From positions 1-22,405 of IMG/VR virus record IMGVR_UViG_3300017697_000111: DNA of 22,405 nucleotides, one strand, 5' to 3'. The stretch is from a virus. Below are positions 4,146 through 19,649 of this stretch, one piece after another. Within the stretch, counting starts at the first letter, position 1, and each line of letters opens with the position of its first letter. The notes beneath the pieces are model-generated. The model did no database searches. It was given only the letters and a program-made list of their open reading frames with translations, and was not told where the DNA came from. The translations under genes and the position numbers were made by a program.

Positions 4146-4153
4146 AATATTAT

Positions 4154-4786
4154 TTAGGTTAAATGTGTTCCATTAAACATAGGATGATTTTTTTCCATTG
4201 CTCCTACTGAACTGTAAATATGTAAAGGACTACACAACAAAGATTCTTCTTCTGTTACAAAATGATGAGGACACATTTTTTCTAAGATTAGAACATCTCC
4301 TTTTGTAATACTAATTTCTTTTTGGTCTTTACCGAGCCCATGTATACAAATTCCAGAACCATCCAATATATAGACTACTCTTACAGTCGAGTGTATATGC
4401 TCTTCCTGTTCTGAACTGCCAGCTGGCATATGTAACAATTGCATGGTAGGATCACCTAGGCGCACTGGAGGCAGTAAAGATTCGGTTGAGCACCCATTGA
4501 TATACGGTAGGTTTGTTCCCATAATTTGTACACTTCTATCAGCCGGAGCATATCCCCTTATGATAACACATAACTTATCACTATTTACCACACCATGACC
4601 TCTCTTAGTGTGTCCTGACCATCGGCCATTCATAAAACGGTAATACCATGCACTGTCACCAACTTCTACATCAACAACTTGTTCTCCGTAATAGACAGTA
4701 TAACTATACAAATCATCGTAACTATCCCAACTGATACCGCTTCCAATTACATTATCGTCCGAATGCTTATTTAAAATTTTAGGCAT
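4154..4786 (-). CDS. Cupin-domain protein
   Basis: A 210-residue protein. The C-terminal half (about 115-195) is a single cupin barrel. Motif 1 is seen as HMPAGSSEQEEHIHS with His130 and His132, followed by YILDGSG. Motif 2 is KGDVLILEKMCPHHF with His174 or His175. These His residues would form the metal site. The N-terminal 110 residues have no motif I recognise and contain several Gly/Tyr-rich strands that may form a second, degenerate barrel. It starts with ATG 3 bases after the PP-loop gene stops, so the two are probably co-translated and functionally linked. A dioxygenase, isomerase or sugar- or ligand-binding role is possible; the substrate cannot be inferred. Confidence 0.7.
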   Translation of the reverse strand: MPKILNKHSDDNVIGSGISWDSYDDLYSYTVYYGEQVVDVEVGDSAWYYRFMNGRWSGHTKRGHGVVNSDKLCVIIRGYAPADRSVQIMGTNLPYINGCSTESLLPPVRLGDPTMQLLHMPAGSSEQEEHIHSTVRVVYILDGSGICIHGLGKDQKEISITKGDVLILEKMCPHHFVTEEESLLCSPLHIYSSVGAMEKNHPMFNGTHLT

Positions 4787-4789
4787 AAT

Positions 4790-5920
4790 TTATTTTCCAA
4801 TCACATTATTGTCCATCATAATATCGTTGTAGATTTCATCTGGTACTTTTTCGTTTCTTTGCCAAAACCTACCATCATCTAACACAAGTTTTAATTGACT
4901 AGGATTATCTCTTCTTTTTTGTCGATGTTCATAATCATACTTACCTTCAACTGCCCCTGCCAAAACCTTAATTAGTGATGGTTCTTTTGTCTTATTTTTT
5001 CTGTAAGTTTCGTCTTTAATGTACTTGTTTATGTACTCTTTAGCTGGTTGTTTATATGACTCCCAAGTGCCTCCATGTTTTACATCATGGTTGACTATTG
5101 ACCATTTTTGAAAATCCTCTGTGTTAAAAAAACTTATTGTAGATTTCCACTCTGATGTACCACTAAATGTAAAAATCATACGACTATCCACATCTTGCCA
5201 CTTAAAACAAAAATTACACCACCAAAATAAATCAAATATTGTTTTTATTTCAAATGGACAATAGTCCACATGTTCAAACAGCAATTCAGCTAATTGAGCT
5301 CTCTTATATTCATAAGTTTCTTGTGTGTCTTTAGGAACATCTGATTTTGCGGCAAATAACTGTCCATTAGGCCAAGTAAGAATAGTTTCCCAATCATCTG
5401 CATGTTTATCTAAGTTTGCATGTAGAGCATCACTACCAAAACACTGATCTCCACATTCTCCAGTTATTTTGATAATGTCATGATTCTCAAATAAAGTATC
5501 ACTCAATATTTCTTTATGTGAAAGAGGATTGTTTTTATCCTTTACCATTTTCTCCCACATTAGAGGAAACTCATCTATAGAATCTTGGGTATATCGAATA
5601 TTCAATACATCTGAATCAGACTTGGTTTCCAGTAAAGCAATCAAGGCTCCACTGCTATCAATACCGCCACTCCAAAATAGTTCTATGGGGTTTCCTAATT
5701 TCCATAGTTCTTTGGCTGCATCCATGCAACACTCTTCCCAAGATTTATTAAATTTTACAACCTTTGGAATAGGGTCATATGTCATGTCAAATGGATTAAA
5801 ATTACCAGTTCTGTCTACAGGCATATATGCCTGTACCAATTGTCCTGTTTGAATGACAGAAGGGGTTATGTTGAGGTTGTCTAATTCAAAAATATCGGGT
5901 CTAAAATATTTCACCTTCAC
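4790..5920 (-). CDS. Asparagine-synthetase-like PP-loop ATPase
   Basis: A 376-residue adenine nucleotide alpha-hydrolase. The PP-loop SGGIDSS (84-90), preceded by the strand IELFW, binds ATP. TGECGDQCFGSD (153-164) is equivalent to the SGEGGDE-FGGY motif of asparagine synthetase synthase domains. These enzymes adenylate a carboxylate and replace AMP with an amine. The N-terminal glutamine amidotransferase domain of AsnB is absent: no Cys2, and only about 80 unrelated residues precede the PP-loop. Ammonia, an amine or another nucleophile may therefore be used. The start is a GTG at 5920 with AAGGA 8 bases upstream, overlapping the end region of gp16 (stop at 5922). With the cupin it interrupts the terminase pair. 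The product could be an amide in a tailoring pathway, but the substrate is unknown. Confidence 0.75.
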   Translation of the reverse strand: MKVKYFRPDIFELDNLNITPSVIQTGQLVQAYMPVDRTGNFNPFDMTYDPIPKVVKFNKSWEECCMDAAKELWKLGNPIELFWSGGIDSSGALIALLETKSDSDVLNIRYTQDSIDEFPLMWEKMVKDKNNPLSHKEILSDTLFENHDIIKITGECGDQCFGSDALHANLDKHADDWETILTWPNGQLFAAKSDVPKDTQETYEYKRAQLAELLFEHVDYCPFEIKTIFDLFWWCNFCFKWQDVDSRMIFTFSGTSEWKSTISFFNTEDFQKWSIVNHDVKHGGTWESYKQPAKEYINKYIKDETYRKNKTKEPSLIKVLAGAVEGKYDYEHRQKRRDNPSQLKLVLDDGRFWQRNEKVPDEIYNDIMMDNNVIGK

Positions 5921-5921
5921 T

Positions 5922-6326
5922 TTACTTATCCTTTAACATTTTCTGCAATTCAGCAGTACTCCCAACAAACAATGCGTTTGTAACATTTTTAGGTGCAGTG
6001 TTGGGCACCTCTTTTAACTTCCTCATTTTCTCTTGCAAGTCACCAAGTTTTTCAGTAACCTCAGCCACTTGTTTAATAAGGTTTCCGGCAACTTCGTATG
6101 CTCGTGGATGGTCCGATTCTTTGGCGAGTTCCAGAATGCCTTCCACTGCATTCGTTCCTTTTTCGACCAAATTGTAGAATTGTTGTCGTTGGTATTCATA
6201 ATCTCTCTCCACATGTTCATTCGCATCACCCCAATCTTCTTGAGATAAGGGTGATACTTCTTGTTTAATAATTTTTTTAGGAAGACTTTCTACCACACCT
6301 AAAGCTTTATCAATTTCATCACTCAT
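5922..6326 (-). CDS. 16: Terminase small subunit gp16 (T4-like)
   Basis: A 134-residue DNA-recognition subunit of the packaging terminase, which regulates gp17. It is almost wholly helical. The central segment around EGILELAKESDHPRAYEVA matches the conserved core of T4-like gp16, which forms the ring-assembling coiled coil. The C-terminal NALFVGSTAELQKML corresponds to NATVFMGSPTELM in T4. A GTG two codons upstream (6332) could also start it, but ATG 6326 has AGAGG about 9 bases before it and begins MSDEID. It overlaps the stop of the SPASM-like gene by 8 bases, consistent with translational coupling. It is followed by the PP-loop gene rather than gp17. Confidence 0.9.
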   Translation of the reverse strand: MSDEIDKALGVVESLPKKIIKQEVSPLSQEDWGDANEHVERDYEYQRQQFYNLVEKGTNAVEGILELAKESDHPRAYEVAGNLIKQVAEVTEKLGDLQEKMRKLKEVPNTAPKNVTNALFVGSTAELQKMLKDK

Positions 6327-6594
6327 CGTCACAATACCTCTTACATATACTAGGAGCTTGTTCTGGTCTATTTATTAGTGTATCAAACCAAGTTTGCCAT
6401 TCTTCCCCCTCGACAATATCCTCAATCCTTTCTACATTACTAACTTTCATACTGTCCTTATAGAATCGAGATATCTCTTTTTCTTCTTCTTCAGAACGAG
6501 TTCTTTGTAAACCACAGCATGGTAGCAGATGACCTGTGGCACAAAAAAATACATCGTTTCCATTTTCTCTAAGACAACGGGGATTAAGTGTCAT
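6319..6594 (-). CDS. SPASM-like cysteine-rich partner of radical SAM protein (copy 1)
   Basis: A 91-residue protein shaped like a stand-alone SPASM/twitch auxiliary iron-sulfur domain. Cysteines are at 7, 18, 26, 27, 84 and 88 in the arrangement C..C-ATGHLLPCC...ICKRYC. SPASM domains normally sit at the C-terminus of radical SAM enzymes and hold auxiliary 4Fe-4S clusters. Here the domain is a separate gene whose ATG overlaps the TGA of the radical SAM gene (ATGA at 6591-6594), so the two proteins are probably made together and form one enzyme. It is clearly related to the protein at 14485-14805: same AxGxLLPCC core, same IED(I/V) segment before a Trp, and same C-terminal CxxYC. The substrate is unknown. 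Confidence 0.75.
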   Translation of the reverse strand: MTLNPRCLRENGNDVFFCATGHLLPCCGLQRTRSEEEEKEISRFYKDSMKVSNVERIEDIVEGEEWQTWFDTLINRPEQAPSICKRYCDDE

Positions 6595-7277
6595 TCTTTA
6601 TTATCGTTGATGAGGCTGTCGCTCATCGGAGATACGATCCCTCTGCCCATGACATACACAGCACGGGGTTCAAATAAAAGTTTATCCCACATCTCATCTT
6701 TCCACTCACCATATCTATACAACTCACCCCACCTACTTGACATTACTGGTTTAAATTTTATTCCATTATGTTTTGCCAACTCTCTTGCCTCGGCAATATC
6801 ATTTTGATTATATTTAAATACAATATATTTCCATACAGGAGTTAACCCATAGTTTAATGCAAGTTTCATCATATCAAACAAATGTTCACCGTCTTGGTTT
6901 ATCCTATACTTATGACTGTCCTTGGGAAGTCCATCAATTCCAAAAATCCACTTTGCATTTACGTTAGCCTTAAATGCTTCTGTGTACCTAGTTGAAGATT
7001 TGTGGGATGCAGCAGTGTGCAATACAGTCTTTTTATTTTTTTCATAAGTTAGTTTAAGAAAGTCTATTAAATTTGTAGCAAAAATAGGATCAGAAATGTT
7101 TCCTATAAGATGTATGCTATCATAATATTCCACAACCTTTTCAAAGTCAGATACCGACATATCACCACCTAAAAATGGTAAATTATTTGTCAGTAAATAT
7201 TTTCTTTCACATTTAGGGCATTCTAGGTTGCATCTAATAGATGTTTCTAGATTGATAGACTTACGTTGATCATACAC
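6591..7277 (-). CDS. Radical SAM core protein (split enzyme, copy 1)
   Basis: A 228-residue radical SAM domain that would reductively cleave S-adenosylmethionine to make a 5'-deoxyadenosyl radical. The CxxxCxxC cluster motif is CNLECPKC (Cys16, Cys20, Cys23) right after the start. The later motif FGIDGLPKDSHKYRINQDG is shared with its paralogue at 14786-15373. The frame stays open upstream to 7463, but that part is the antisense-phase shadow of gp15. The paralogue begins at the same point (ILDRKSINLD versus VYDQRKSINLE), so I place the start at the GTG at 7277, with AAGGAG 12 bases upstream and 1 base after the gp15 stop. No SPASM domain is fused; it follows as a separate overlapping gene. 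It is inserted between gp15 and gp16, a place where T4 has no such gene. Confidence 0.85.
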   Translation of the reverse strand: MYDQRKSINLETSIRCNLECPKCERKYLLTNNLPFLGGDMSVSDFEKVVEYYDSIHLIGNISDPIFATNLIDFLKLTYEKNKKTVLHTAASHKSSTRYTEAFKANVNAKWIFGIDGLPKDSHKYRINQDGEHLFDMMKLALNYGLTPVWKYIVFKYNQNDIAEARELAKHNGIKFKPVMSSRWGELYRYGEWKDEMWDKLLFEPRAVYVMGRGIVSPMSDSLINDNKE

Positions 7278-7278
7278 A

Positions 7279-8055
7279 CTACTCGTCCACTCCTTGGAAG
7301 AATGAAGATGTTTCATTAAATCCAAAGTCATCATCAGCATCAGCTGTAGTAGGATTAGGTGTAACAACAAGTCTTTGCTCTCTCTTAGGAGCAGTGTCCT
7401 TGAGGTCTGTAAACTGATCAACCTGTACAGTCTTAATAATAGATTGTGAGGTAACAGGTCCATACAGATAGAATTTTGCTGTAAAACTCAATGTATAAAT
7501 TAAGGATCGTCTTGCTGTAAAGTCTCCTTCATAATCATCTTCATAGGAAATACTATTCAAGACTATAGGAACATCTCGTTTAATTCCCATCTCAGCCATA
7601 TCATTGATTGTCAAAGTATAGTCTGGTTGGAAGTATGGTAAAATTTGTTCAACAATCTGTAATGCATCGTCAGAATTTTTTGCGAGTACATACAATTCAA
7701 ATCCAACATTATATGGTACTGGCATAAATTGTGTTTCAAGAGATTTGCCTTGAGTACCAGATTTTGTCTTTTTAAATTGTTGAATACGATTTAGTTTTCT
7801 TGATGGGTCATATGAAAGACCATTGATTTCAAAACCAATTCGTGGCAATGTAACCGCAACCTGTTTTGTCAAGTTTGGGTCTTCAGCAAGACGAACCAAA
7901 AATTTCTGCCTCGGACCATAAGCCAAAGGAACTTTCATTGATTGAACTACTTTACCATCGCTGTCTTTACGAACCAACGATATATTATTGAACATTGTAC
8001 CGAATGCAACAACCACTTTTCTGATTGTCTCATGGTAATATTGTGTGCCTAACAT
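7279..8055 (-). CDS. 15: Tail terminator / sheath stabiliser gp15 (T4-like)
   Basis: Hexameric protein that caps the tail tube and sheath and connects the tail to the neck. It has 258 residues, close to T4 gp15 (272). The signature IVEQILPYFQP at 134-144 is essentially identical to T4 gp15. The N-terminus LGTQYYHETIRKVVVAFGTMF parallels the T4 start, MFGYFYNSSFRRY. It also shares the KRDVPIVLNS segment and the C-terminal ITYTLSF-type strand. The last 50 residues are acidic and apparently disordered. Its ATG overlaps the gp14 stop by one base (TAATG), and it follows gp13-gp14 as in T4. Confidence 0.93.
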   Translation of the reverse strand: MLGTQYYHETIRKVVVAFGTMFNNISLVRKDSDGKVVQSMKVPLAYGPRQKFLVRLAEDPNLTKQVAVTLPRIGFEINGLSYDPSRKLNRIQQFKKTKSGTQGKSLETQFMPVPYNVGFELYVLAKNSDDALQIVEQILPYFQPDYTLTINDMAEMGIKRDVPIVLNSISYEDDYEGDFTARRSLIYTLSFTAKFYLYGPVTSQSIIKTVQVDQFTDLKDTAPKREQRLVVTPNPTTADADDDFGFNETSSFFQGVDE

Positions 8056-9059
8056 TAACCTAAACTCCCTGCATCACCAAATGGATTATTCTCACTAAAA
8101 TCAAGGATCGTATCGTCTAACCTATCGAACAATTCATTCTGCGCTGACGGATCAGCGTCAGTAGATAATCTACTACCTTCTCCTAGTATATAGTCTTCTT
8201 GTAACAACCACTCACCAGTTTCAAGTAACAAGCTCTCACCGACTGAAGTTGAGTCATCCTCACCAATGATATTGTCATTATCTGTCTCATCCTTCAGCAG
8301 ACCCCTTGTTGTGGCCGTATCATGTATACGAACAGATTCATTAACGGCGGAAGACTGTTCCAATGTAACTTGATACACTAATGTATCTACAGACAACGCA
8401 TCTTCAATTGCATCAACAGCTGAAATACCAGTATCCAAACGTTCCGAACTGTAATCGAATGTGCGACACGATAATTTATAAACTGGATTATTGTCTAATT
8501 GATTAAAAGGTTCGTCATCATTTACAAAATTAACTTCAAACAATTTTTTTAGAATAGGATGAAAAACTAAATCCCCCTCTAGTGGACGGTCTGCACCTGT
8601 AGCATCTGTCTCTGATAACAAGTAAAAATCAGACCCCTCAAAAGTAACTGCATTACCTGACATATCAATAGTATCAGCTTCCAATAAAATAGAACCACCC
8701 GAATCTGTATCTGTTGCATCTTCAATAGTAAATTGTTTTGTTAATTCTTGAAATCTATGTTTTGCAACTACAAATGTAATTTCGCTCAAGTCTTGAAGCC
8801 CAAACTTTGTCATAAGCTCTCTTTCTCCGGCGTATCCTCCACCAGAGTTTTCAACATACATTTCTATTTTTGCAGAGTTTCTGAATTTAGAAAGTGTATC
8901 TTCACCAAATACAGTGTCTTCTGCAACAAGTGTTCTATCAAGATAATGAACATCGTGCCCATAAATTTGAATTACTTCAGCAACCAAATTCTTGTATAGG
9001 TTTTGTTCAGTCGCAAGAGCAGCAACATTATTTGTGTGGAATGCTGAATTAACGGCCAT
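8055..9059 (-). CDS. 14: Neck protein gp14 (T4-like)
   Basis: Head-completion (neck) protein that, with gp13, forms the connector to which tails attach. It has 334 residues, longer than T4 gp14 (256). The N-terminal third matches T4: GHDVHYLDR at 34-42, VFGED at 50-54, then KFRNSAKIEMYVEN and GYAGE. A later DLVFHPILKKLFEVNFV corresponds to GDLIYFPMDNSLFEINWV in T4. The extra length lies in Asp/Ser/Gly-rich insertions around residues 118-160 and in the acidic C-terminal 110 residues. The end NPFGDAG resembles the SSPFDNDFMD tail of T4. It follows gp13 by 4 bases. Confidence 0.92.
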   Translation of the reverse strand: MAVNSAFHTNNVAALATEQNLYKNLVAEVIQIYGHDVHYLDRTLVAEDTVFGEDTLSKFRNSAKIEMYVENSGGGYAGERELMTKFGLQDLSEITFVVAKHRFQELTKQFTIEDATDTDSGGSILLEADTIDMSGNAVTFEGSDFYLLSETDATGADRPLEGDLVFHPILKKLFEVNFVNDDEPFNQLDNNPVYKLSCRTFDYSSERLDTGISAVDAIEDALSVDTLVYQVTLEQSSAVNESVRIHDTATTRGLLKDETDNDNIIGEDDSTSVGESLLLETGEWLLQEDYILGEGSRLSTDADPSAQNELFDRLDDTILDFSENNPFGDAGSLG

Positions 9060-9063
9060 TAAA

Positions 9064-9879
9064 TTATCCTATCATGTAGTTAACTGGCAATTCAAAATGC
9101 AATTGAATTTGTTCTTCTAACTTAGTAATCTCTTCTTGTGCTTGTGAATAAATTTCGCCCCCATTCATAGTAACTCCACCAAGCATTTCTACTCCGCTGA
9201 ACTTAGATAAATTTGCACCCCACTGTCTTTTAATGAGAGCAGATGTATATCGTTTCAAATACATGTCATTAAAAATATCTGTAAATTGTGTCGGGTCAAG
9301 TTTTCTGTAACACTCTATGACAATGAACTCATCTACATGAATATCATTGTTCCAATCCATATCCAGATAGAGTCTCTGTTGGTGTTGACTAAAACGAATT
9401 GGAACCTCACCAACCAAAATATGCTCTAAAAAGTCAAGATGCTGAAGCGTCATTTGGTATTCCATAATAGAAGTGGATGAAAAATCATACAAGTCATTCA
9501 ACCTCAGCTGATACCTTAGATCAAACATATTTGACGTAGAACTATCTGTAAAAGGGAAAACTTGTACAACTGAAATAACTGCATCGGGTGTAGGTATATA
9601 TCCTGCTCCATCAAGCCAAGTAGCTGTTACTGAATTATCAACGGTATCAGTTGCAGATGAGGTGTTATCAGTTACAGCTCGATCAATATCTGCCTGTGTT
9701 ATCTGGTGTTTTAGATAGACACGCTCAATTCCATCGTAATGATACTCAGCAAAAAATTGAAGTGCCTCATCAATACGGTCATCAACCTGATCATCAGACA
9801 CGTTAATGTCGATCACACCGAAACCTAGTGACCTGAGACAGTATGATTTAAGTGTAGCTTTTGTTGCTGGAATTGCCAT
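9064..9879 (-). CDS. 13: Neck protein gp13 (T4-like)
   Basis: Neck protein that binds the portal after packaging and prepares the head for the tail. It has 271 residues against 309 in T4. The N-terminal segment from LRSLGFGVIDINV to AEYHYDG (16-50) matches T4 LRRLGAPIINVELT...GEYHFDG. The C-terminal MLGGVTMNGGEIYSQAQEEI parallels MLPGGVTIDGQRLIEEA. ATG 9879 has a strong AAGGAG at 7-base spacing and an exact late promoter just upstream, marking the return from accessory genes to virion genes. Confidence 0.93.
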   Translation of the reverse strand: MAIPATKATLKSYCLRSLGFGVIDINVSDDQVDDRIDEALQFFAEYHYDGIERVYLKHQITQADIDRAVTDNTSSATDTVDNSVTATWLDGAGYIPTPDAVISVVQVFPFTDSSTSNMFDLRYQLRLNDLYDFSSTSIMEYQMTLQHLDFLEHILVGEVPIRFSQHQQRLYLDMDWNNDIHVDEFIVIECYRKLDPTQFTDIFNDMYLKRYTSALIKRQWGANLSKFSGVEMLGGVTMNGGEIYSQAQEEITKLEEQIQLHFELPVNYMIG

Positions 9880-9908: not shown

Positions 9909-10398
9909 AGTATTTAGATGCGATACAGTTTGGACCATACTGCCCATCTTCAAACCAATCAGATTGTTGAACAAATCCGACACTTTTATATGCCGCTAAC
10001 GCACTTTCTCTAGGAACTGTCCACATCCAGTGGCCACCTTTGCGTTTTGCGTATTCTAAACACCAAATTAACACCACACTAGAATATTTTTGTCCTCTAA
10101 AATTTGGATGAACCCATAATCCTCTTGATCTCCAATACTTAAACATACCTTGAGTATTACTATAATAACAACTGTTCACTGCAACTAACTCTTGTCCAGA
10201 CCTAATACCAATAAATGTAGGTTCGACTTCTTTGGCCATTTGTTTGTCTTTACCAAGTTTTCTCTTGCTCCGAACTACGGACCATTCCCATGTCCACTCA
10301 TTTGCTTTTGCAACTCCATTCTTCTTGTCAGGCCACAGTTCTTTCTCCCATACCTCTTTGATTTCCTCGAAACTTATTTCCTCGACAAAATCAAGCAT
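9904..10398 (-). CDS. GNAT-family N-acetyltransferase
   Basis: A 164-residue protein with the GNAT core. GLWVHPNFRGQKYSSVVL (93-110) is the motif A strand and pyrophosphate-binding loop (R/Q-x-x-G-x-G/A class, here NFRGQKY). AAYKSVGF (135-142) is motif B near the C-terminus. Such enzymes move an acyl group from acyl-CoA to an amine or hydroxyl. An upstream ATG at 10455 is in frame, but the start at 10398 overlaps the glycosyltransferase stop by only 8 bases and has GGAAGGG about 10 bases before it. It is the last gene of the accessory chain and could acetylate a sugar or peptide amine made by it. The substrate is not evident. Confidence 0.8.
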   Translation of the reverse strand: MLDFVEEISFEEIKEVWEKELWPDKKNGVAKANEWTWEWSVVRSKRKLGKDKQMAKEVEPTFIGIRSGQELVAVNSCYYSNTQGMFKYWRSRGLWVHPNFRGQKYSSVVLIWCLEYAKRKGGHWMWTVPRESALAAYKSVGFVQQSDWFEDGQYGPNCIASKYL

Positions 10399-11092
10399 TG
10401 TTTTTGAACCCTTCCCATTCGTGTGGTTTGTTGAAACGGTGTGAGAAGTGAACAAACTTTATGTCAGGATGAAACTCATCACCCAAACATATATAATCGT
10501 TTCCAGTTATCTCTCTATATTTTCTTGTTAGCTGAACATTAAATTTCATCATGCTCTTTCCGTAGATTATGTCTTCACCAGTTACCCAACGAGTAAACCA
10601 TTGAGGTGGTAATACTGTTAGTTTTAATTTCTCCCTAACTGAGTCCTCAACAAAATATTGCTCTCCATTTACAGGACCATTTGTTGTACCATTCAGAATA
10701 TAATACCTCTGCCAGTGTTTCATATCTTTCATGAATTTCTCATAGATGTATTCGCAGTCGGTTGGGTAGTATTTGAAAAACCCACCGTTTATTTTGTAAC
10801 CTTCCTTATCGGTATCTCTCCACCAACCTGGCATCGCAGCAAATTCACCCCGCTCGATAGGGAACTCAAATATTTTCTTGTAATCATTTATGAGCAGCAT
10901 GTCAATGTCAATTACACAAACAGGTTCATCAATGCCTGTATGCATAGCGTACATCTTGTTCCATTGCAACTCTACCTCTGGATGATAGGGTTCTCGTATC
11001 CAGACTATTTCGTAGTCTGAAAGTTTTTTCTCCAAGTATGTTTCGTATTCCGGCCCATACTTGTCACCGATTCTAACTGCAAATATCTTCAT
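10391..11092 (-). CDS. Glycosyltransferase, GT-A fold (copy A)
   Basis: A 233-residue protein resembling nucleotide-sugar-dependent GT-A (GT8-like) glycosyltransferases. The N-terminal strand MKIFAVRIGDKYGPEY is followed by the acidic metal motif VIDIDMLL (Asp62, Asp64; D-x-D). An aromatic MPGWWRD (87-93) and KINGGFF (100-106) follow where acceptor or sugar contacts occur in the family. The C-terminal FVHFSHRFNKPHEW may hold the metal-coordinating His. The ATG overlaps the TGA of the preceding oxygenase (ATGA). It shares the GDKYGxEY start and the D-x-D and GWW arrangement with the protein at 17246-18088, so the two probably descend from one ancestor. The target could be a virion protein, host surface glycan or island product. 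Confidence 0.75.
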   Translation of the reverse strand: MKIFAVRIGDKYGPEYETYLEKKLSDYEIVWIREPYHPEVELQWNKMYAMHTGIDEPVCVIDIDMLLINDYKKIFEFPIERGEFAAMPGWWRDTDKEGYKINGGFFKYYPTDCEYIYEKFMKDMKHWQRYYILNGTTNGPVNGEQYFVEDSVREKLKLTVLPPQWFTRWVTGEDIIYGKSMMKFNVQLTRKYREITGNDYICLGDEFHPDIKFVHFSHRFNKPHEWEGFKNNA

Positions 11093-11907: not shown

Positions 11908-13234
11908 ATTTGTCTTTCGTAGGTTTTGTACCTCTCAAGTAATAGTGTTGAGTGTGTGTATCCAATAGTTCAATTAGTTTATTAAAACTTTTAATCAAGT
12001 CTGGAAAGGTATAACAAACATGAGATACATGATAGCCGTATATGTTACTAATATCCATGAACACCCGTTTATCTTTGATTTTTTCCACGAACCATTTGTT
12101 CCCAACAAGGCAGCTATCTATAACATCAAATACTTTATACTCTATATCACATTCTTCGTACATATTCAGTTGTAGTTTCCTTAGCTCCTCATGAGTTCCA
12201 AAGGTCATACCTCGTTTTTTCAATTCATCTGTGTGTGGTATATCCCCACCATAATCATTAAAAATAAACATCTGTGTTTCATTTTTTGAATATAATTTTA
12301 TATCACCCATAGTCATATTCATTTCAACTATATTTTGTTTTATATCTATATTTTCACTACAATAATCATAGAATACAATATCACCATCAAAATTTAACCT
12401 ATCAGCAAATACCTCACCACTATATCCAGCTGTAGGAGTAATAATTAAATTAAACTCATCGTCAGGAAGTTTACCTAAATTTTCCGTATTCTCTACATAA
12501 AACGTTTCATACATCCTAGTCATCAATATTTTAAAGTAATTGTCAGTCATATCTAACTGATCACGCCAACCAAAGGTTCTATCTACTGCGATATTCCAAT
12601 TTAGATCGTGAAGTTTTTTACGATCTTCCATATGACCATAAGACCAAGCTTTATGTTTTCTTTCTCCAACAGAAAAATTTGTGATAGTAGGAAACCCTGA
12701 TACTTTTAATGTAGATGGTGTGTAGTCATCATGAAAATTATCAGACGATCTTGTGTATTTTTCCCATTTATTTTGAAGGTTGGGTTTTCCTTTCCTCCTC
12801 CAAATATCAAGATTTAATTCTATATGTTGATAATGTAGAAACGCTGGTTTATTTGGATGTGCAATTATATGAGCTCTACAAAATTCATCACCCTTAGTCC
12901 ACTCACAAAAACTTTCAATTGATGTTGGATAGTTTACCATATCAAAAACCATACCAGTAGAAACAATCATGGCATGAGTATAATCATCACAAGTTTCTAA
13001 CACATCATATAGTTCTGTCAGATAACATATTTTCTGATCATGACCTGTCCCTGCTCCAGTGAAACCACCAGAGGTTTGTAGCAATGTTGTTTGCAGTTGT
13101 TTTTCTGATCCAAAATTCCAACCCAAATTTTCTGGATGCACAACAATGAAAACCAAATGTTCAAAACCTTTTTTGATTTTTATCTTGTTTGTTTCATTTA
13201 ACCAAAGGTCTTTAAATTCCTCAAAGTTTTTCAT
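11897..13234 (-). CDS. Unknown 445-residue protein of the accessory island
   Basis: I do not recognise this protein. The first half has strands and loops loosely like a GT-A glycosyltransferase (LVFIVVHPENLGWN near the start, THAMIVSTGMVFDM, then AHIIAHPNKPAFLHYQ) but no D-x-D where a metal site would be. The second half has a Rossmann-like pattern (FNLIITPTAGYSG, GDIVFYDYCSENIDI) that could be a degenerate SAM-methyltransferase-type domain. These resemblances are weak and by eye only. An ATG at 13261 is also possible, but the start at 13234 overlaps the upstream radical SAM gene by only 14 bases. No signal peptide or membrane span is seen. Tight overlap on both sides says it belongs to the same pathway. 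Confidence 0.7.
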   Translation of the reverse strand: MKNFEEFKDLWLNETNKIKIKKGFEHLVFIVVHPENLGWNFGSEKQLQTTLLQTSGGFTGAGTGHDQKICYLTELYDVLETCDDYTHAMIVSTGMVFDMVNYPTSIESFCEWTKGDEFCRAHIIAHPNKPAFLHYQHIELNLDIWRRKGKPNLQNKWEKYTRSSDNFHDDYTPSTLKVSGFPTITNFSVGERKHKAWSYGHMEDRKKLHDLNWNIAVDRTFGWRDQLDMTDNYFKILMTRMYETFYVENTENLGKLPDDEFNLIITPTAGYSGEVFADRLNFDGDIVFYDYCSENIDIKQNIVEMNMTMGDIKLYSKNETQMFIFNDYGGDIPHTDELKKRGMTFGTHEELRKLQLNMYEECDIEYKVFDVIDSCLVGNKWFVEKIKDKRVFMDISNIYGYHVSHVCYTFPDLIKSFNKLIELLDTHTQHYYLRGTKPTKDKYVK

Positions 13235-14492
13235 AATAGGGTTTCCATTCGGGAAACACATCAGTCAAACATGTTCCCCGAAACTTGTCTCGTTTTGCAA
13301 CATCAATCATCATTTTTTTATGTAGTTTCTCATCCCACTCCATATCAGTAAGATAATTAGCCAACTTCATAAACGTTTTTGTGTGATGCGGTTTTACTAA
13401 AGTATAAATTCTTTCAAGATATTGTTCTCTAATATCTAATGGAACTGCCGTAACAATATACAAATTGTCTCCACCAAACACAAGACTACCAGTAGCAAAA
13501 TTATTATAGATATCTGGCTCCTGTTCTTGTAAAATATCTACACCGTCTGCCACCTCATTCAAATAACCAATATTAAGAGAGCTAACACAAGTAGCAAATA
13601 ATATCCTAGTGTCAGGCATCTTTGAGAATCGTCCTACGTTCTCCATTATTTTTTCCCACTTTGACGGGAACCTTATGTAATTATTTTTATCTCCCCAACA
13701 CTCCACCGAAATGTTCATCTGACAACCATTGAACTCTGGAACATAATTAAATATGTCACCTAACTTACCCATCTCTGGAGTTAAAGTTGCATTTGTGGTT
13801 ATGGTAAGATGCATGTTTTTCGCAACACCCATCTCAATAGCTTTGTCCATCATTTCATAATTTTGAGGCAATGCTAACGTTTCACCACCTACGAGTTTCA
13901 TTTGAACAGCTGTCTCTAACACCTCCTCGAACTTTGTCATATCATCTTCTTCATTAACCCAAGTTCTACCTTTGAGCCAAGAACTGCTAGCACCTTTACC
14001 CTTATCAATACCTATCGCTTTGTTTTCTCTCGCATATGTTGAAGAGTTAAACGGGCCGCACATATTACATTTCAGATTACAAAAATTATTTGGAGCATTA
14101 TATTCCATAGTTAAGTAAAATGGTTCACTGTGATCTGTATCAATATACTCCTCTAATTTTTCTAAATGTTCTCTGTGTTCACCATGATTTTCATCAAACT
14201 TGTCAAGGTACATAATCCTATGACTTTCTGTAGCAGAGTGTTTTTCTTGTTCTTTACAAACTTGACAATACTTATCTTGCAACGGGCCACCACCAGTAAG
14301 AAACTCTTTCCGAAAATCTTTCATCAATTGAGATTCGTGCAAAGCCTTTGGACCAATAATTCCTTCATTTACTAAATGTCTACTTGGCCACTCTTTTAAA
14401 ACACAACATGGTTTAGATGAACCGTCTTGTGTAGAAACAGTATTCATAAATGGTTGAGGACAAAACCACTCTAAGTCTGTTAATTTAGTCAT
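13221..14492 (-). CDS. Twitch/SPASM radical SAM protein
   Basis: A 423-residue enzyme with both auxiliary and radical SAM regions in one chain. The N-terminal 85 residues carry Cys11, Cys29-Cys30, Cys76 and Cys79 (a C..PCC..CQVC pattern), a twitch/SPASM-like cluster site placed before the core. The radical SAM core follows with CNLKCNMC (Cys138, Cys142, Cys145) and GGETL (202-206), the SAM-binding GGE motif. TITTNAT and NISVECWG are typical later strands. Proteins of this layout are common in marine phages; their reactions are not known to me. The ATG overlaps the stop of the SPASM-like gene by 8 bases, so three radical-SAM-related genes are read in a row. Confidence 0.87.
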   Translation of the reverse strand: MTKLTDLEWFCPQPFMNTVSTQDGSSKPCCVLKEWPSRHLVNEGIIGPKALHESQLMKDFRKEFLTGGGPLQDKYCQVCKEQEKHSATESHRIMYLDKFDENHGEHREHLEKLEEYIDTDHSEPFYLTMEYNAPNNFCNLKCNMCGPFNSSTYARENKAIGIDKGKGASSSWLKGRTWVNEEDDMTKFEEVLETAVQMKLVGGETLALPQNYEMMDKAIEMGVAKNMHLTITTNATLTPEMGKLGDIFNYVPEFNGCQMNISVECWGDKNNYIRFPSKWEKIMENVGRFSKMPDTRILFATCVSSLNIGYLNEVADGVDILQEQEPDIYNNFATGSLVFGGDNLYIVTAVPLDIREQYLERIYTLVKPHHTKTFMKLANYLTDMEWDEKLHKKMMIDVAKRDKFRGTCLTDVFPEWKPYYEKL

Positions 14493-14805
14493 GAACTTCT
14501 ACCTCTCTAGTTCCTTTATCATCACTACAATATTTCATACAGATTTTAGGAACAGATGTTCCCTTGGTTAGTCCATTAAAAAAATCAAGCCATTCTGTTG
14601 ACAGTATAATATCTTCAATCGTATCGACATTTTCTATTTTTAATTCTTCTTTAAACAAATCGTCCATACCGTCCATGTTTCCATCGTAGTTTGATTTTAA
14701 TTTTCGCAAGGGGTCTGTCCAACAACAGGGTAATAGATATCCCTCAGCATTTAACGCAAACGATTTACCTTTAGCACATTTTGGTTTAAGCACAATTATA
14801 CTCAC
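14485..14805 (-). CDS. SPASM-like cysteine-rich partner of radical SAM protein (copy 2)
   Basis: A 106-residue protein with cysteines at 10, 27, 28, 89 and 93 in the pattern C-A(x)GYLLPCC...ICMKYC. It is homologous along its length to the 91-residue protein at 6319-6594, and like it directly follows a radical SAM core gene. It begins with GTG at 14805, overlapping that gene by 20 bases. The most likely role is to supply auxiliary iron-sulfur clusters to the separate core. One cysteine of copy 1 (position 18) is Leu or Asn here, so the number of clusters may differ. The C-terminal 12 residues are extra and charged. Confidence 0.75.
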   Translation of the reverse strand: MSIIVLKPKCAKGKSFALNAEGYLLPCCWTDPLRKLKSNYDGNMDGMDDLFKEELKIENVDTIEDIILSTEWLDFFNGLTKGTSVPKICMKYCSDDKGTREVEVHD

Positions 14806-15373
14806 TTGGTTTGTATTGATCGTCTGGACCAGACCACCGTGAAGACTTGTTTATATGAATAGGAATTTTGTGACGTTGAGCAAGGTCTATAGCTTCTGGT
14901 ATGTCATTCTCATTATACTTAAAAATTATATACTGCCACCTAATATCATTACCAAGTTCAACACCAGTTTTCATCACATTAAACAAATATTCACCATTCT
15001 GATTTATCCTGTATTTAGGACTGTCCTGTGGAAGCCCATCAATACCGAACTCCCATGTGGCATTTTTATTTGCGAGAAATGCATCTCTATACCAATCCAT
15101 AGGTTTATGAGAAGCAGCAGTATGTACAAAGACTCTTTTATCTTTGGTAAGCTCAAGAAACTCTATGAACTGTGGGTGAAAGATTGGGTCAGATATTTGA
15201 CCACAAAATTCTATCTGATCAAAATGACTTATGATCTTCTTGAAACTATCTAAAGATAAATCACCAAGATTGTTAGTGGGAACAGAACGTCTAAGACACT
15301 TTGGACATTCTAATGTGCATCGGTGGGTTATATCAAGGTTGATACTTTTTCTATCTAGTATGGTTGAAAGCAA
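14786..15373 (-). CDS. Radical SAM core protein (split enzyme, copy 2)
   Basis: A 195-residue radical SAM domain with CTLECPKC (Cys19, Cys23, Cys26). It shares long stretches with copy 1: TNNL after the cluster, ISDPIF, HTAASHK, FGIDGLP-DS-KYRINQ and FKYN-NDI. Copy 1 runs about 40 residues further at the C-terminus. The start is probably TTG at 15373: an in-frame TAA lies two codons upstream and no ATG or GTG lies before the cluster motif. The weak start and 23-base overlap with the oxygenase gene suggest translation by coupling. It lacks a fused SPASM domain, which follows as its own gene. Confidence 0.83.
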   Translation of the reverse strand: MLSTILDRKSINLDITHRCTLECPKCLRRSVPTNNLGDLSLDSFKKIISHFDQIEFCGQISDPIFHPQFIEFLELTKDKRVFVHTAASHKPMDWYRDAFLANKNATWEFGIDGLPQDSPKYRINQNGEYLFNVMKTGVELGNDIRWQYIIFKYNENDIPEAIDLAQRHKIPIHINKSSRWSGPDDQYKPSEYNCA

Positions 15374-15863
15374 TGCTTATTCTCTTTTTGTTACTTTCAT
15401 TCGGTTCTACTGAATGGAAACAGTCGGAAGGAAATAACAACAGCCTGTTTGTTTTAGGACTAAACTTTTTAGGTGGATCATAAAGAGTTGGATTTGATCT
15501 CATTACTGTGCCTTGAAAAACAACATCGCCCATATTATCCTCTGGAACAGAAACATAAAAGATGCCACTAACTCCTATTGGCTCTGCTGGTGGAGTTCTG
15601 TCATAATGATCATGTGTGGTATTTGAATGACCATTTCCGTTTACATTGATCCACCAGTGAACCATATTCACTGTATTGTCTATTAAATGCACATAATGAT
15701 CAATACATTTCTTGAGAGAATCTGGCATGTCTTCTGGTTCAAAAAGTGCGCTTTGATATCCACCTTTGTTAGATTTAACTCGGCCGATCTGTGTGTAGTC
15801 TCCAACAATTCGTGTCATAGTATCTGTATAGTCAGGTAGTTTTACTGTGTAGTCTTTAATCAT
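15351..15863 (-). CDS. 2OG-Fe(II) oxygenase, small phage type
   Basis: A 170-residue double-stranded beta-helix oxygenase. The iron site is NTTHDHYD (His84, then Asp85 or His86) and LLLFPSDCFHSV (His150). Arg161 in KKRISIAFN would bind 2-oxoglutarate. GVSGIFYVSVPEDNMGDVVF is the hallmark strand pair of the putative 2OG-Fe(II) oxygenase family that is frequent in marine T4-like phages. The length suggests a minimal catalytic domain. It overlaps the hydroxylase-like gene by 8 bases, so two different oxygenases are translated back to back. It would hydroxylate a protein side chain or metabolite; the substrate is unknown. Confidence 0.85.
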   Translation of the reverse strand: MIKDYTVKLPDYTDTMTRIVGDYTQIGRVKSNKGGYQSALFEPEDMPDSLKKCIDHYVHLIDNTVNMVHWWINVNGNGHSNTTHDHYDRTPPAEPIGVSGIFYVSVPEDNMGDVVFQGTVMRSNPTLYDPPKKFSPKTNRLLLFPSDCFHSVEPNESNKKRISIAFNHTR

Positions 15864-16548
15864 TTAATTCCCTCAATACATCCTTACCAAACTGTTTAAC
15901 CATAGACCGTTTCATTAACTCAATTCTTTCTTTGTTTGATCCACCGTGGACAATAAAGTGAAAACGATTTTCATCAGAGCTGTTTAGTGCCTCATGTGTT
16001 ACACCATTATCAAACCAAAATCCTGTGCAGTTTTCAAATGGTAGTTCTTCCTTTGTGTCTACTCTTCGTAGATAACAATTGTCTGGCTGGTAGATTGCAA
16101 GATTGATTGCAGCAGATATGTTTCTCTGTCTTCCCTCGTTTATTCTTTCATCCCCAGCGTCATGATGTGCAGTGATACTACCGCCTGGTTTTATCAGCAT
16201 GAACCGACAACGCCTATAGTGTTTATGTGGAAAGTCTTCTAGCCATCTCTTCATCTCTGGTGCGACCTCAGCCACTTCAGTCCATCCCCACTTCACTGTA
16301 TTTTCAGAATACCCGTACCCAGACGGGTTCATAGTATTTCTCCATCCAAGTGAAGTATCAGCTTCATCCTCATGAACAAATCCATGTATAGATGCTGACC
16401 ACCACTCATCACCATCCTGTAGTCGATGCGGTACAAAGAACCCCTCGTCATAAACTGCCTGAGCTTCTTTGATGATAATCTCTGGTATCTCTAGATCAAT
16501 TTTTAAATACCATATATCATTTTTTCTACACCACTGAACAGGATTCAT
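15856..16548 (-). CDS. Asp/Asn beta-hydroxylase-like 2OG oxygenase
   Basis: A 230-residue protein. The catalytic half has RFMLIKPGGSITAHHDAGDE (His128, Asp130 as the HxD pair), NISAAINLAIYQPDNC, GFWFDNGVTHEALNSS (His185) and Arg195 in ENRFHFIVHGG, the layout of Asp/Asn hydroxylase-type jelly rolls. The N-terminal 110 residues are Trp- and Glu-rich (DEWWSASIHGF, VKWGWTEV) and probably recognise the substrate. Its ATG overlaps the TGA of the methyltransferase-like gene (4 bases). It is distinct in sequence from the oxygenase at 11089-11907, so the island holds three oxygenases of at least two families. Confidence 0.8.
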   Translation of the reverse strand: MNPVQWCRKNDIWYLKIDLEIPEIIIKEAQAVYDEGFFVPHRLQDGDEWWSASIHGFVHEDEADTSLGWRNTMNPSGYGYSENTVKWGWTEVAEVAPEMKRWLEDFPHKHYRRCRFMLIKPGGSITAHHDAGDERINEGRQRNISAAINLAIYQPDNCYLRRVDTKEELPFENCTGFWFDNGVTHEALNSSDENRFHFIVHGGSNKERIELMKRSMVKQFGKDVLRELND

Positions 16549-17252
16549 CTACCAATCACCATAAATCTTGTACTCTTATTAGAGAGAATTTTTGATCCAG
16601 AATATATTACATGCTTAATTCTAGCCTGATCAATCAGTTCGTCCTCTGATTCAACACAATTTATATGATCTTCGTGTTGATCATCATTTGATGACTGCAA
16701 CACAAGCAAGGGATTTTTCTGCACTGCATTGTTTAGTTCTCTAAATTTCCACATAGGATACATGTGTTCACAAGCACAGTTTATAACAACATCATAGATA
16801 TCGTCCTTTGGTATTGGAGTGTTAGGGTTTTGTACAAACTTGAGAGGTTTAATCATCACGTTTCTCATATTAATTTTGTATCTATTTTCATCCTTATATC
16901 GTTTATTGAACTTGTAACTTATAGGTGCTACATCATTATCAATCTCAAAATTTTCAATCCACTCACACTTCGGAAATGTATCGAACATGAGAGGAACAAT
17001 ATATTGAGCAAACCAACCAGCAAGTAGAGCTACTCTTTTCGGTTGCACATCAAATTTTTCTAATGTCTCTACCAACCAAATTTTACTTTCTAATTGAGAA
17101 GCGTTCATACTGTCAAAAACTCTTTTTGTCAAGTATTGATAATTTCCAGCTTCTAAATTCACGCCAGCTGAGATTGCGTTCTTCCAATCCTCTGCTAATT
17201 TTGGTCTAAATTCTAAATGCACGTTATGACCCTCCGCTGCAATTGCTACCAT
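16545..17252 (-). CDS. Class I SAM-dependent methyltransferase-like protein
   Basis: A 235-residue protein with a Rossmann methyltransferase pattern. Strand 1 is KRVALLAGWFAQYIV, where the usual GxGxG is degenerate. Next come WIENFEIDND, with the acidic residue that binds the ribose, and IYDVVINCACEHM as strand 4. LLVLQSSND and FMVIGR form the final strands. The degenerate glycine loop means cofactor binding is not assured. ATG 17252 overlaps the glycosyltransferase stop by 7 bases. A sugar or peptide methyl transfer in the island pathway is plausible; no acceptor can be named. Confidence 0.6.
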   Translation of the reverse strand: MVAIAAEGHNVHLEFRPKLAEDWKNAISAGVNLEAGNYQYLTKRVFDSMNASQLESKIWLVETLEKFDVQPKRVALLAGWFAQYIVPLMFDTFPKCEWIENFEIDNDVAPISYKFNKRYKDENRYKINMRNVMIKPLKFVQNPNTPIPKDDIYDVVINCACEHMYPMWKFRELNNAVQKNPLLVLQSSNDDQHEDHINCVESEDELIDQARIKHVIYSGSKILSNKSTRFMVIGR

Positions 17253-18088
17253 AATGATTTTAGCTCCTCAACATCATTTGTATCTGCACTGTTGTTGAAC
17301 AAGCAGATTTTATGATCTGGCCTTAATTTTTTTTGTTCCATGTCTGAGGGAAAAATGTTACCTGTATAATATGAATAAATGTCTCCTTTTGGAAATACAT
17401 TAAAGAAACTTTCATCTGTCCGACCACTATCTTCATACCACATATTATACCAAAAGTGATTAAGATAATTATCAATGGTAGGATATGTAAAAAATAAAAC
17501 GTCTAAGTTCTTAGCAATGTGTTTGTATATCTCTATGAGTTGTCCTCTATTCCATCGAATGACAGATGAATTTATAGGAGTTGATCCCATAGCAGCATAG
17601 TTCTTACGACACAAATTCATATCGTTCCACCATCCCCTAACGATCCACGGTTTACCATGTACAGCGGTGACTTTAGTCTCTGCTGTCCATGATTGTTTCA
17701 TATCAAGATCAAAGAAATATTTTAGGTCTTGGTGGATGATAACGTCTAAGTCGAGATAAAGAAAATTATTTCCCTGTATAGTTTTAAAATCTCTTTCAGA
17801 TTCATTCCATCCACCTGTAGATGTGTAATAATCAAGTTGAAACATGTAGAGTTTTCTGTATGCCCACATGTTAGAAGGAGCCTGTTTATTACGAAATCTA
17901 CTATGCAAACCTTCGTACTTATCCCAAGATGAAGGAAGCAGTATATCATAATCTTTTTCTTTTTTGTCAGTGAGACAGTAAAAGTTGAAAGGGACTGAGC
18001 AGTTATCTTCACACTGTTGTTTCAACTTCTCCACATATTCTCGGCCGTACTTGTCTCCCCACTTAACGCATAATATTGTATTATCCAT
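17246..18088 (-). CDS. Glycosyltransferase, GT-A fold (copy B)
   Basis: A 280-residue protein. The N-terminus MDNTILCVKWGDKYGREYVE matches the start of the glycosyltransferase at 10391-11092. FLYLDLDVIIHQDL gives the D-x-D metal site (Asp113, Asp115). WIVRGWWNDMN and NSSVIRWNRG follow as acceptor-side motifs, and FFTYPTIDNYLNHFW lies in the position of the donor-specificity helix. An ATG at 18121 is in frame, but 18088 overlaps the SGNH gene by only 8 bases, has GGAGAG close upstream, and gives the conserved N-terminus. With copy A it would supply two sugar-transfer steps. Confidence 0.75.
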   Translation of the reverse strand: MDNTILCVKWGDKYGREYVEKLKQQCEDNCSVPFNFYCLTDKKEKDYDILLPSSWDKYEGLHSRFRNKQAPSNMWAYRKLYMFQLDYYTSTGGWNESERDFKTIQGNNFLYLDLDVIIHQDLKYFFDLDMKQSWTAETKVTAVHGKPWIVRGWWNDMNLCRKNYAAMGSTPINSSVIRWNRGQLIEIYKHIAKNLDVLFFTYPTIDNYLNHFWYNMWYEDSGRTDESFFNVFPKGDIYSYYTGNIFPSDMEQKKLRPDHKICLFNNSADTNDVEELKSLW

Positions 18089-18764
18089 AAATCTCTCCGT
18101 ATCTTTTATATATAATGTCACTTACATGGTCATGATCATCTTGGGTTGGGTGGCCGTTGTCAGGACAATCAACAATCTCAAAGAAATTAAATCCGCCCAT
18201 AGATTGCAGAAATGGCCAACCAATAATATTCTGATTATCCAAATCCATTAATGGTTTATATTGTAACATCAGCTTTGCTATGTCTTTAGAAACAAGCGGC
18301 ATACATCGTATTAAACTTGCTATTTGCAAGTATGGTATTTTCTTATCTCTACAAAAACTGGACAAAGACAACATATTTCTAATGCCTTTTTCAATCATGT
18401 ATCTTGGGTATTTACGAGATTGAGTTACATTTCCAGCAGATTTTAAATTTGTTTTCACATCCACAACATTGTAATCACCAAAAGGACATTCTGGTTGGGG
18501 GGTATCAATAAAAGGCACTACTGAAGCATCAAGAGATATTGTCCTATCAAATCCAGACCATGCAGATACGACCAAACCTATATTTTTACTTTCATATATC
18601 GTGTCAATGGTTATATCATGAATGTACTGATTACTTGCTCCACCTCTACCAATATTAATAAAATCCATATCTAATTTTTCTGCAAGAAGTTCTGGCCAAA
18701 ATTTTAGGTCTTGAAATTTGTTTTTAGTAAAACTACAACCAGATGCAATGAGTAATTTTCTCAT
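18081..18764 (-). CDS. SGNH/GDSL-like hydrolase (copy 1)
   Basis: A 227-residue alpha/beta protein of SGNH type. KLLIASGCSFT puts the nucleophile at Ser11. NIGRGGASNQYI has the Gly and Asn45 of the oxyanion blocks. PDNGHPTQDDH near the C-terminus gives the D-x-x-H pair (Asp202, His205). Members are esterases, or acyltransferases that add or remove O-acetyl groups on sugars. I chose the ATG at 18764, next to an in-frame GTG at 18767, because it overlaps the stop of the tiny upstream gene (TGATG) and gives the usual short start before the first strand. It is paralogous to the protein at 18846-19649. No signal peptide is present, so it acts in the cytoplasm or on the virion. Confidence 0.7.
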   Translation of the reverse strand: MRKLLIASGCSFTKNKFQDLKFWPELLAEKLDMDFINIGRGGASNQYIHDITIDTIYESKNIGLVVSAWSGFDRTISLDASVVPFIDTPQPECPFGDYNVVDVKTNLKSAGNVTQSRKYPRYMIEKGIRNMLSLSSFCRDKKIPYLQIASLIRCMPLVSKDIAKLMLQYKPLMDLDNQNIIGWPFLQSMGGFNFFEIVDCPDNGHPTQDDHDHVSDIIYKRYGEIYG

Positions 18765-18871
18765 CACTCATCTTTCTCGTATATGAAGTTATGGGGTTCA
18801 GGCAACTTTCTTCTCATGATAACAGTTGACCAGAAAAGTTTCAACCTAAGAATAATTCTTTTTATAACCAT
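18764..18871 (-). CDS. 35-residue mini-protein linking the two SGNH genes
   Basis: A short frame runs from an ATG at 18871 to a TGA at 18766-18764. The start lies inside the end of the first SGNH gene, and the stop shares its A with the ATG of the second (TGATG). The frame fills exactly what would otherwise be the only real gap in the accessory chain. The protein starts MVIKRIILRLKLFWSTVIM, a basic, hydrophobic stretch that could bind a membrane. It ends RRKLPEPHNFIYEKDE, a proline-containing acidic tail. Small phage proteins with a similar hydrophobic start and acidic tail are familiar in this group, but I can name no function. It may instead serve only to couple translation. Confidence 0.5.
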   Translation of the reverse strand: MVIKRIILRLKLFWSTVIMRRKLPEPHNFIYEKDE

Positions 18872-19649
18872 CTAACAATATCTCCATAATATATTCATGA
18901 CCCATTTCATTTGGATGGGTATCTTTTTTAGTTATCCTCATCTTATTTCTTGATGGGTCTTTTTGGTCCATTAGATAATCCCAACACCAACCGCCAATAT
19001 GTTCTGATATGGGCCAACCAAGAAATGTTGTATCTTCAATCAAAGAGAGGTACGGACTATTTATAAGTTCTTTCCCAAACCTCTGCATGTCTGTTATTGT
19101 ATCACCATCAGCATTAGGGTAACAAGCTTGAAAATGTAGGTGAGGAATTTTTAGAGATGTACAAAGAGACTGAAAATTGTAAATATATCTAAGTGTCTTT
19201 TGTGTTCCAGCAGTCAAATCCATCAAATGATACTTATCAAATATTTCAGAAATCTTGAAAGCTTTACCCTCTCGAAAGGTGTTTATCTCTACGTCACTTT
19301 TATTTTCGACCTCTTCTATTTTCCTACCAGGCTTGAAACTTTCCCATTGATGTTGATATACAGCCATCCTTCGATTGTATACCTCTGCAAAAAAACTGGT
19401 CCGTTCAACCTCTGACCAACCAACAACCACCAACCCAATATTTTTAGTGCTGACTATCTCATCAGTCACCTTGCTCCAAATCGCTTCGTTACCATCTCCA
19501 CAGTTGCCAAGATTCACTAACTCCATGCCAAGTTTATCAGCAAGAAGTTCAGACCATATAGGAAATTGTTGAATGTGAATTTTCATTGCGTAGTTGTCAG
19601 TATAACTGCAACCAGCAACTATAAGTTTTTTCTTAGAAAATAGCGACAT
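18846..19649 (-). CDS. SGNH/GDSL-like hydrolase (copy 2)
   Basis: A 267-residue protein. KKKLIVAGCSYTDNY places the nucleophile at Ser15. LVNLGNCGDGNEAIW carries the Gly and Asn54 of the oxyanion hole. VVVGWSEVER is the strand that follows, and KDTHPNEMGHEYI near the C-terminus supplies Asp243 and His245. The order and spacing match the neighbouring copy, with an extra helical insertion of about 40 residues after the GWSEVER strand. Its ATG overlaps the carbamoyltransferase stop by 17 bases. Two paralogues side by side suggest different substrates or a heteromer. It could edit acyl groups on a glycan, or be a non-hydrolytic SGNH-fold acyltransferase. Confidence 0.7.
   Translation of the reverse strand: MSLFSKKKLIVAGCSYTDNYAMKIHIQQFPIWSELLADKLGMELVNLGNCGDGNEAIWSKVTDEIVSTKNIGLVVVGWSEVERTSFFAEVYNRRMAVYQHQWESFKPGRKIEEVENKSDVEINTFREGKAFKISEIFDKYHLMDLTAGTQKTLRYIYNFQSLCTSLKIPHLHFQACYPNADGDTITDMQRFGKELINSPYLSLIEDTTFLGWPISEHIGGWCWDYLMDQKDPSRNKMRITKKDTHPNEMGHEYIMEILLDGYKKNYS

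Follow-up and report, generated by a model that had tools for sequence, protein, structure and literature searches.

To our knowledge, in all known radical SAM-Twitch and radical SAM-SPASM enzymes the radical SAM core and the auxiliary cluster domain are parts of a single chain. Among those with a C-terminal Twitch domain are MoaA, BtrN, and SkfB, which the phage proteins described here resemble in the CX3CX2C motif of the core, in the C-x~16-C ... C-x2/3-C pattern of the auxiliary domain (PMC6231123), and in the arrangement of the two domains in a structural model. In those enzymes both domains belong to one polypeptide, whereas the phage proteins are encoded by two genes that occur in either order, with the auxiliary domain sometimes carried on a GT8 glycosyltransferase. 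The radical SAM/SPASM enzymes PqqE, SuiB, and anSME have the same layout of a core and a C-terminal auxiliary domain, but their SPASM domain has seven cysteines and two clusters, and the small phage protein has five cysteines. A further comparison is offered by the lipoyl synthase LipS1/LipS2, in which the task of one radical SAM enzyme is divided between two proteins (PMC9585515); both of these are complete radical SAM enzymes with two clusters each, while the phage proteins would be the separated halves of one enzyme. We found no description of a separate SPASM or Twitch subunit in the open-access literature, to which the search was confined.

Two split radical SAM pairs in a T4-like phage record

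The DNA analyzed is a virus record of 22,405 bases, the whole of which we refer to as the window. It carries T4-like genes on the minus strand, including those for the terminase large subunit (2505-4145, minus strand) and for head-closure and adaptor proteins (8055-9059 and 9064-9879, both minus strand). By position and sequence, we take the ORF at 7279-8055 to be gp15 and the ORF at 3-2072 to be the tail sheath gene.

Our analysis identified two pairs of genes in which a radical SAM core and its putative auxiliary domain are separate. In the pair that we call copy 2, a stand-alone core of 195 amino acids (14786-15373, minus strand; start TTG at 15373; CX3CX2C cysteines C19/C23/C26), for which 172 relatives were collected from IMG/VR, is followed by a Twitch/SPASM-like subunit of 106 amino acids (14485-14805, minus strand; start GTG at 14805 or at 14793). 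The two ORFs overlap by 20 nt, or by 8 nt if the alternative in-frame GTG at 14793 is used, so that the positions, the protein sizes, and the 20-base overlap reported in an earlier note on this DNA are correct. The same note had described a second split at 6319-7277, and this pair (copy 1) is present as well, with a core (6591-7277, minus strand; start GTG at 7277) and a subunit of 91 amino acids (6319-6594, minus strand) joined by an ATGA overlap. Copy 1 is embedded among the structural genes: its core adjoins the end of gp15, and the next gene of that block lies on the other side of the pair. Relative to its core, the small gene is in frame +1 in copy 2 and +2 (-1) in copy 1. The two cores share 53% identity and the two small proteins 35%, and the copies belong to different clades in both the core tree and the small-protein tree, which rules out a recent tandem duplication of one pair.

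The next gene after copy 2 (13221-14492, minus strand) encodes a third radical SAM protein, which the earlier note had described as having its auxiliary cysteines at the N-terminus. This protein is a member of a known NCBI family, N_Twi_rSAM (NF033640), of radical SAM proteins with an N-terminal Twitch domain (E = 5e-73; 246.4 bits against a curated cut-off of 170). Its Twitch-type cysteines (C, CC, CxxC) are like those of the adjoining small protein, but its Twitch domain is N-terminal and fused, unlike that of the split pair. Neither the core nor the small protein of the split pair was matched in a search with the NF033640 model, and the similarity between the small protein and the N_Twi_rSAM profile was weak (hhalign probability 34, E = 4e-4), and the reading of the small protein as a detached N_Twi_rSAM domain was rejected. 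An obligate third partner was rejected as well, as N_Twi_rSAM lies directly after the split pair in just 7 of the 28 relatives examined. Immediately upstream of copy 2 are two overlapping genes for iron-dependent oxygenases (15351-15863 and 15856-16548; 2OG-FeII_Oxy_5, Asp/Asn beta-hydroxylase-like).

A radical SAM core and a Twitch-type small protein

Pfam scores alone were weak for both proteins (Radical_SAM, E = 0.02; SPASM, E = 0.007; both under the cut-off). The radical SAM cysteines of the CX3CX2C motif are invariant in all 50 cores compared, and the model described below contains the six strands of a partial (beta/alpha)6 barrel, the two features by which membership in the radical SAM superfamily was judged. 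The top matches in the PDB were radical SAM enzymes (best E = 6e-9), and the best similarity in NCBIfam was to the maturase TIGR04317, far below the cut-off.

Invariant residues in all 33 split small proteins compared are five cysteines, a tryptophan, and a proline that precedes the CC pair. In copy 2 they form the pattern C-x11-G-x4-C-C ... C-x3-C (C10, C27, C28, C89, and C93). A SPASM domain has the seven-cysteine motif CX9-15GX4C-gap-CX2CX5CX3C-gap-C and two clusters (PMC6231123). The first half of the small-protein motif corresponds to the start of this motif, CX9-15GX4C (here CX11GX4C), and the remainder, CX2CX5CX3C-gap-C, is replaced by C-x3-C, leaving five conserved cysteines rather than seven in the 33 relatives. 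The earlier note had called the small protein SPASM-like, a description that is right in that the protein is cysteine-rich and that 20 of the 33 split small proteins match Pfam SPASM at E <= 0.01 (best 4e-5), and that fails on the number of cysteines. The spacing found here, C-x16-C ... C-x3-C, agrees with that of a Twitch domain, in which the four Aux I cysteines (C-x~16-C ... C-x2-C) are placed on a beta-hairpin and helices. In BtrN the second Twitch spacing is one residue shorter than the C-x3-C of the small protein. In the model, the small domain matched the Twitch portions of MoaA, SkfB, and BtrN. The five conserved cysteines and the C-x3-C in place of the SPASM remainder therefore suggest a Twitch-type, one-cluster domain, and the small protein is better named a Twitch-type domain, with one predicted cluster, than a full SPASM domain.

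Comparison of the split small proteins with the C-terminal domains of fused relatives gave an hhalign probability of 99.9 (E = 1.6e-34), which makes split and fused small domains one family. Searches of PDB sequences returned chance matches only with the small-protein profile, and chance matches apart from a weak match to GDGT-MAS with the fused homologue L096.

Gene arrangement and occurrence among relatives

Relatives in IMG/VR were collected separately for the core (172) and for the small protein (91), and the best 80 of each set were kept and their loci classified by profile models. Among the 77 non-redundant cores in this selection, the core precedes the small gene in 34 and follows it in 18, and the two are fused in one frame in 12. 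Two further cores have a small gene on both sides, 8 have none adjacent, and 3 lie at contig ends. In none of the 52 non-redundant split pairs is the auxiliary domain on the same polypeptide as the core, as it is in known radical SAM-Twitch/SPASM enzymes. Several of the 8 cores with no adjacent small gene are outside the family proper (Campylobacter phage enzymes and N_Twi_rSAM-like proteins), the clear cases being L022 and L031. The lone core of L022 (3980-4633) sits between gp15 and the next structural-block gene, the site that copy 1 occupies in the window. In L031, a radical SAM gene for a protein of 540 amino acids with a B12-binding-domain-like N-terminal part (3989-6457) is placed between the core and the small gene. 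In four other loci (L070, L071, L078, and L080), the operon contains one core and, after it, two small Twitch-like genes in a row.

The core tree requires a minimum of seven transitions between the core-then-small, small-then-core, and fused arrangements. Searching with the small protein itself gave 26 testable non-redundant cases (those with flanks of 900 nt or more at each end), and every one of these small proteins has a core, as a neighbor in 24 cases and by fusion in 2, so that a routine occurrence of the small protein without a core gene, the objection raised in the earlier note, was seen in none of them. In the 52 split pairs the frame offset is +1 in 31, +2 in 20, and 0 in 1, and nearly all overlaps are of 4-32 nt. 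The mixed frame offsets and short overlaps therefore point to translational coupling and not to one recoding site.

Both halves of the pair are under purifying selection. By the Nei-Gojobori method, dN/dS between copy 2 and L007 is ~0.16 for the core (0.073/0.447) and ~0.11 for the small protein (0.077/0.710), and between copy 1 and L018 it is 0.19 (0.112/0.589) and 0.11 (0.052/0.452), respectively; for the small protein from Hyphomicrobiales described below the values are 0.066/1.30. Core and small-protein distances are correlated (r = 0.62; highest value after shuffling, 0.17), a correlation that is weak beyond close relatives (r = 0.18). The many independent contigs, both gene orders, both frame offsets, and purifying selection agree with the view of the earlier note that this is a stable two-gene design and no accidental frameshift, and the fused homologues that were searched for do exist (the 12 non-redundant cases among the 77 cores). 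A sequencing or assembly error is ruled out by the recurrence of the split in relatives and by the dN/dS values.

The pair is also present in a cultured SAR11 phage, Pelagibacter phage Mosig EXVC030M, as Mosig_00084/00085, annotated as "molybdenum cofactor biosynthesis enzyme" and "hypothetical protein", respectively, the pairing being unrecognized in the record. In this phage (L157, 9880-20848) the pair belongs to a large modification island with several radical SAM genes, an aminotransferase, a carbamoyltransferase, hydroxylase genes, and nitroreductases; as part of a cultured phage, this island is tractable for experiments. Such radical SAM cassettes sit in the host-recognition cluster of pelagimyophages, according to a survey of these phages (PMC7029224).

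Bacterial genomes from 84,980 species were also scanned and yielded just 8 loci. One of them, 93% identical to a window protein, is for that reason probably phage sequence binned with a bacterium. Two others are split pairs with cellular neighbors on Hyphomicrobiales contigs of 227 kb (L160, 5312-6279) and 174 kb (L161, 5327-6279), found in 2 of 397 genomes of this order. In L160 these neighbors are presumably GMP synthase, IMP dehydrogenase, and EngA-like genes, as read from the sequence. The two pairs share ~90% protein identity in unrelated neighborhoods, and the similarity starts and ends at the pair; therefore, the split pair moves as a two-gene unit.

Predicted enzyme, glycosyltransferase fusions, and substrate

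For structure prediction, the natural copy 2 DNA was joined into one chain by a single +1 step in the overlap, and aligned with 19 fused relatives and with separate rows for the core and the small protein. AlphaFold2 returned a model with a mean pLDDT of 86.4 and a pTM of 0.87, with values below 50 at the artificial junction (residues 194-198). Its best PDB match was MoaA (Z = 17.7; 246 residues at 3.4 A, model residues 1-286), along with SuiB (Z = 17.4), BlsE (17.3), SkfB (17.2), PqqE (16.3), and BtrN (14.3), and most of these matches span both the core and the small part, that is, whole enzymes. In a viral structure library, the best match was another core-only phage protein, of 204 amino acids. 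In this single-chain model the small domain occupies the usual place of a Twitch domain, so that a structure lacking an interface, the other refuting result named in the earlier note, was not seen. The placement lends support to docking of the subunit on the core at the Twitch position, short of proof because the chain is artificially continuous and AlphaFold, which knows the fused enzymes, may set any Twitch-like domain in this way.

At the level of the genes, the two-gene organization is well established, as are its conservation and the relationship to fused forms, and we consider it likely that in T4-like marine phages each pair encodes a single radical SAM-Twitch enzyme composed of two chains. 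The cluster content, the heterodimer, and the electron role of such an enzyme are what we infer. In the core, CX3CX2C would bind SAM and the [4Fe-4S] cluster that forms the radical, for SAM cleavage and hydrogen abstraction. The small subunit would fold as a Twitch domain, use four of the five conserved cysteines to bind a single auxiliary Fe-S cluster, and dock at the mouth of the core barrel, like the fused C-terminal domain in MoaA, SkfB, and BtrN. The auxiliary cluster could provide a substrate-binding surface, as in MoaA, or act as an electron acceptor, as proposed for BtrN and anSME. The gene overlap would lead to coupled, near-equal synthesis of both chains. Such an enzyme would explain a set of unannotated small cysteine-rich phage genes and make many core-only phage radical SAM genes half-enzymes. 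The natural split also permits a direct test of the role of the auxiliary cluster, using the core with, without, or with a foreign auxiliary subunit.

Three other readings of the split were weighed. The overlap could be a site of programmed ribosomal frameshifting, with a fused core-Twitch protein as the functional product; fused homologues exist, and a single +1 step within the overlap connects the two copy 2 ORFs with no intervening stop codon. This is very improbable, however, as the shift needed varies among pairs (+1 in 31, +2 in 20, and in-frame in 1) and between the window copies, a plausible start codon for the downstream gene is present in every case close to where the upstream gene stops, and in the 18 non-redundant pairs with the small gene upstream no frameshift yields the core-Twitch order. 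The existence of fused relatives and the short overlaps might also be read as decay or mis-assembly of fused genes, the splits being recent frameshift errors, yet the same junction recurs in independent assemblies, dN/dS is far below 1 in both halves, both gene orders occur, and the invariant motifs are intact, so that we give this reading almost no credence. The small protein might instead be a free-standing Fe-S electron carrier or a chaperone for the radical SAM proteins of the island, and not a stoichiometric docked subunit. The core that lacks an adjacent small gene (L022), the radical SAM gene inserted between core and small gene (L031), the core-small-small operons, and the fusion of the small domain to a glycosyltransferase would all fit such a role, which is nevertheless improbable in view of the strict adjacency (26 of 26 testable cases), the homology to domains covalently joined to the same core, and the correlated divergence of the two proteins.

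The glycosyltransferase fusions are found in L129, L033, L131, L079, and L165 (the last in a bacterial bin), where the small domain runs into ~265 further residues (L129, 3992-5125; L033, 4609-5670; L165, 5998-7041; and others), with the core as a separate gene upstream. The added part is a glycosyltransferase by PHROGs (phrog_1962, E = 2e-13), and its predicted fold is that of GT8 enzymes (3tzt, Z = 17.4; GlyE, 17.3; LgtC, 16.7). In L129 and others the domain has the GT-A fold with the DxD motif that characterizes GT8, here an invariant D-I-D. A small domain fused to a GT8 glycosyltransferase with its core as a separate gene appears to be new here.

An alignment-based family search with the transferase part found 308 relatives, against 3 loci in a single-protein search. 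Among 60 non-redundant transferase loci, 7 have the transferase fused to the small domain, and a core is present within ~5 kb in 30 and a small domain in 21, a link that consists of gene fusions and neighborhood, the background frequency of GT8 genes in such islands being uncontrolled. In L212, N_Twi_rSAM, core, small protein, and transferase are four overlapping separate genes, and the last two are fused in L202, L216, and L267. The window itself encodes a GT8-like glycosyltransferase with a DID motif (10391-11092, minus strand; blastp E = 5e-18 to the L129 fusion domain in a single comparison) and a second glycosyltransferase-like protein (17246-18121, minus strand), the N-terminus of which matches the same GT8 family (E = 1e-9 in a single comparison; phrog_1962, E = 7e-4). 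Neighbor tallies elsewhere also include DegT-type sugar aminotransferases and carbamoyltransferases. The split enzyme probably belongs to a surface-decoration island of T4-like marine phages, which would tie radical SAM chemistry to glycosyltransferases in the host-recognition islands of abundant marine phages.

The fusion of the small domain to GT8 enzymes hints at a sugar-related substrate, which may quite possibly be a sugar, a glycan, or a glycosylated acceptor, handled together with GT8-type glycosyltransferases. On the question of substrate alone, the same two-subunit enzyme might modify a virion protein or, in RiPP-like fashion, a ribosomal peptide. Its structural neighbors SuiB, SkfB, and PqqE act on peptides, its best NCBIfam similarity is to a maturase (TIGR04317, far below the cut-off), copy 1 lies within the structural gene block, and Asp/Asn hydroxylase-like and 2OG oxygenase genes are nearby. 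We regard a peptide substrate as possible but less likely, since an RRE domain match is absent from both subunits, the Hyphomicrobiales pair has no conserved small precursor gene alongside (the similarity ends at the pair), and the GT8 fusions point to sugars. A RiPP precursor beside the Hyphomicrobiales pair was ruled out, as none is conserved between L160 and L161.

A more speculative and rather unlikely extension of the two-subunit enzyme is that the auxiliary-cluster domain is a detachable, exchangeable subunit, which would serve more than one core per island, stand on either side of the core gene, or be carried on a glycosyltransferase that delivers the radical chemistry to the transferred sugar. 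If true, radical SAM enzymes of this kind would form a modular system in which the cofactor subunit, the core, and the transferase are separate and can be exchanged.

Two other regions of the window encode proteins worth recording. A 376-amino acid protein with an SGGIDS PP-loop motif (4790-5920; ATP pyrophosphatase/asparagine synthase-like) adjoins a cupin gene (4154-4786); it had no match in Pfam and a weak, QueC-like match in PHROGs. The adjacent ORFs at 18081-18767 and 18846-19649 are paralogues that share an SGNH-like N-terminus (GCSFT/GCSYT) and match DUF6071 weakly.
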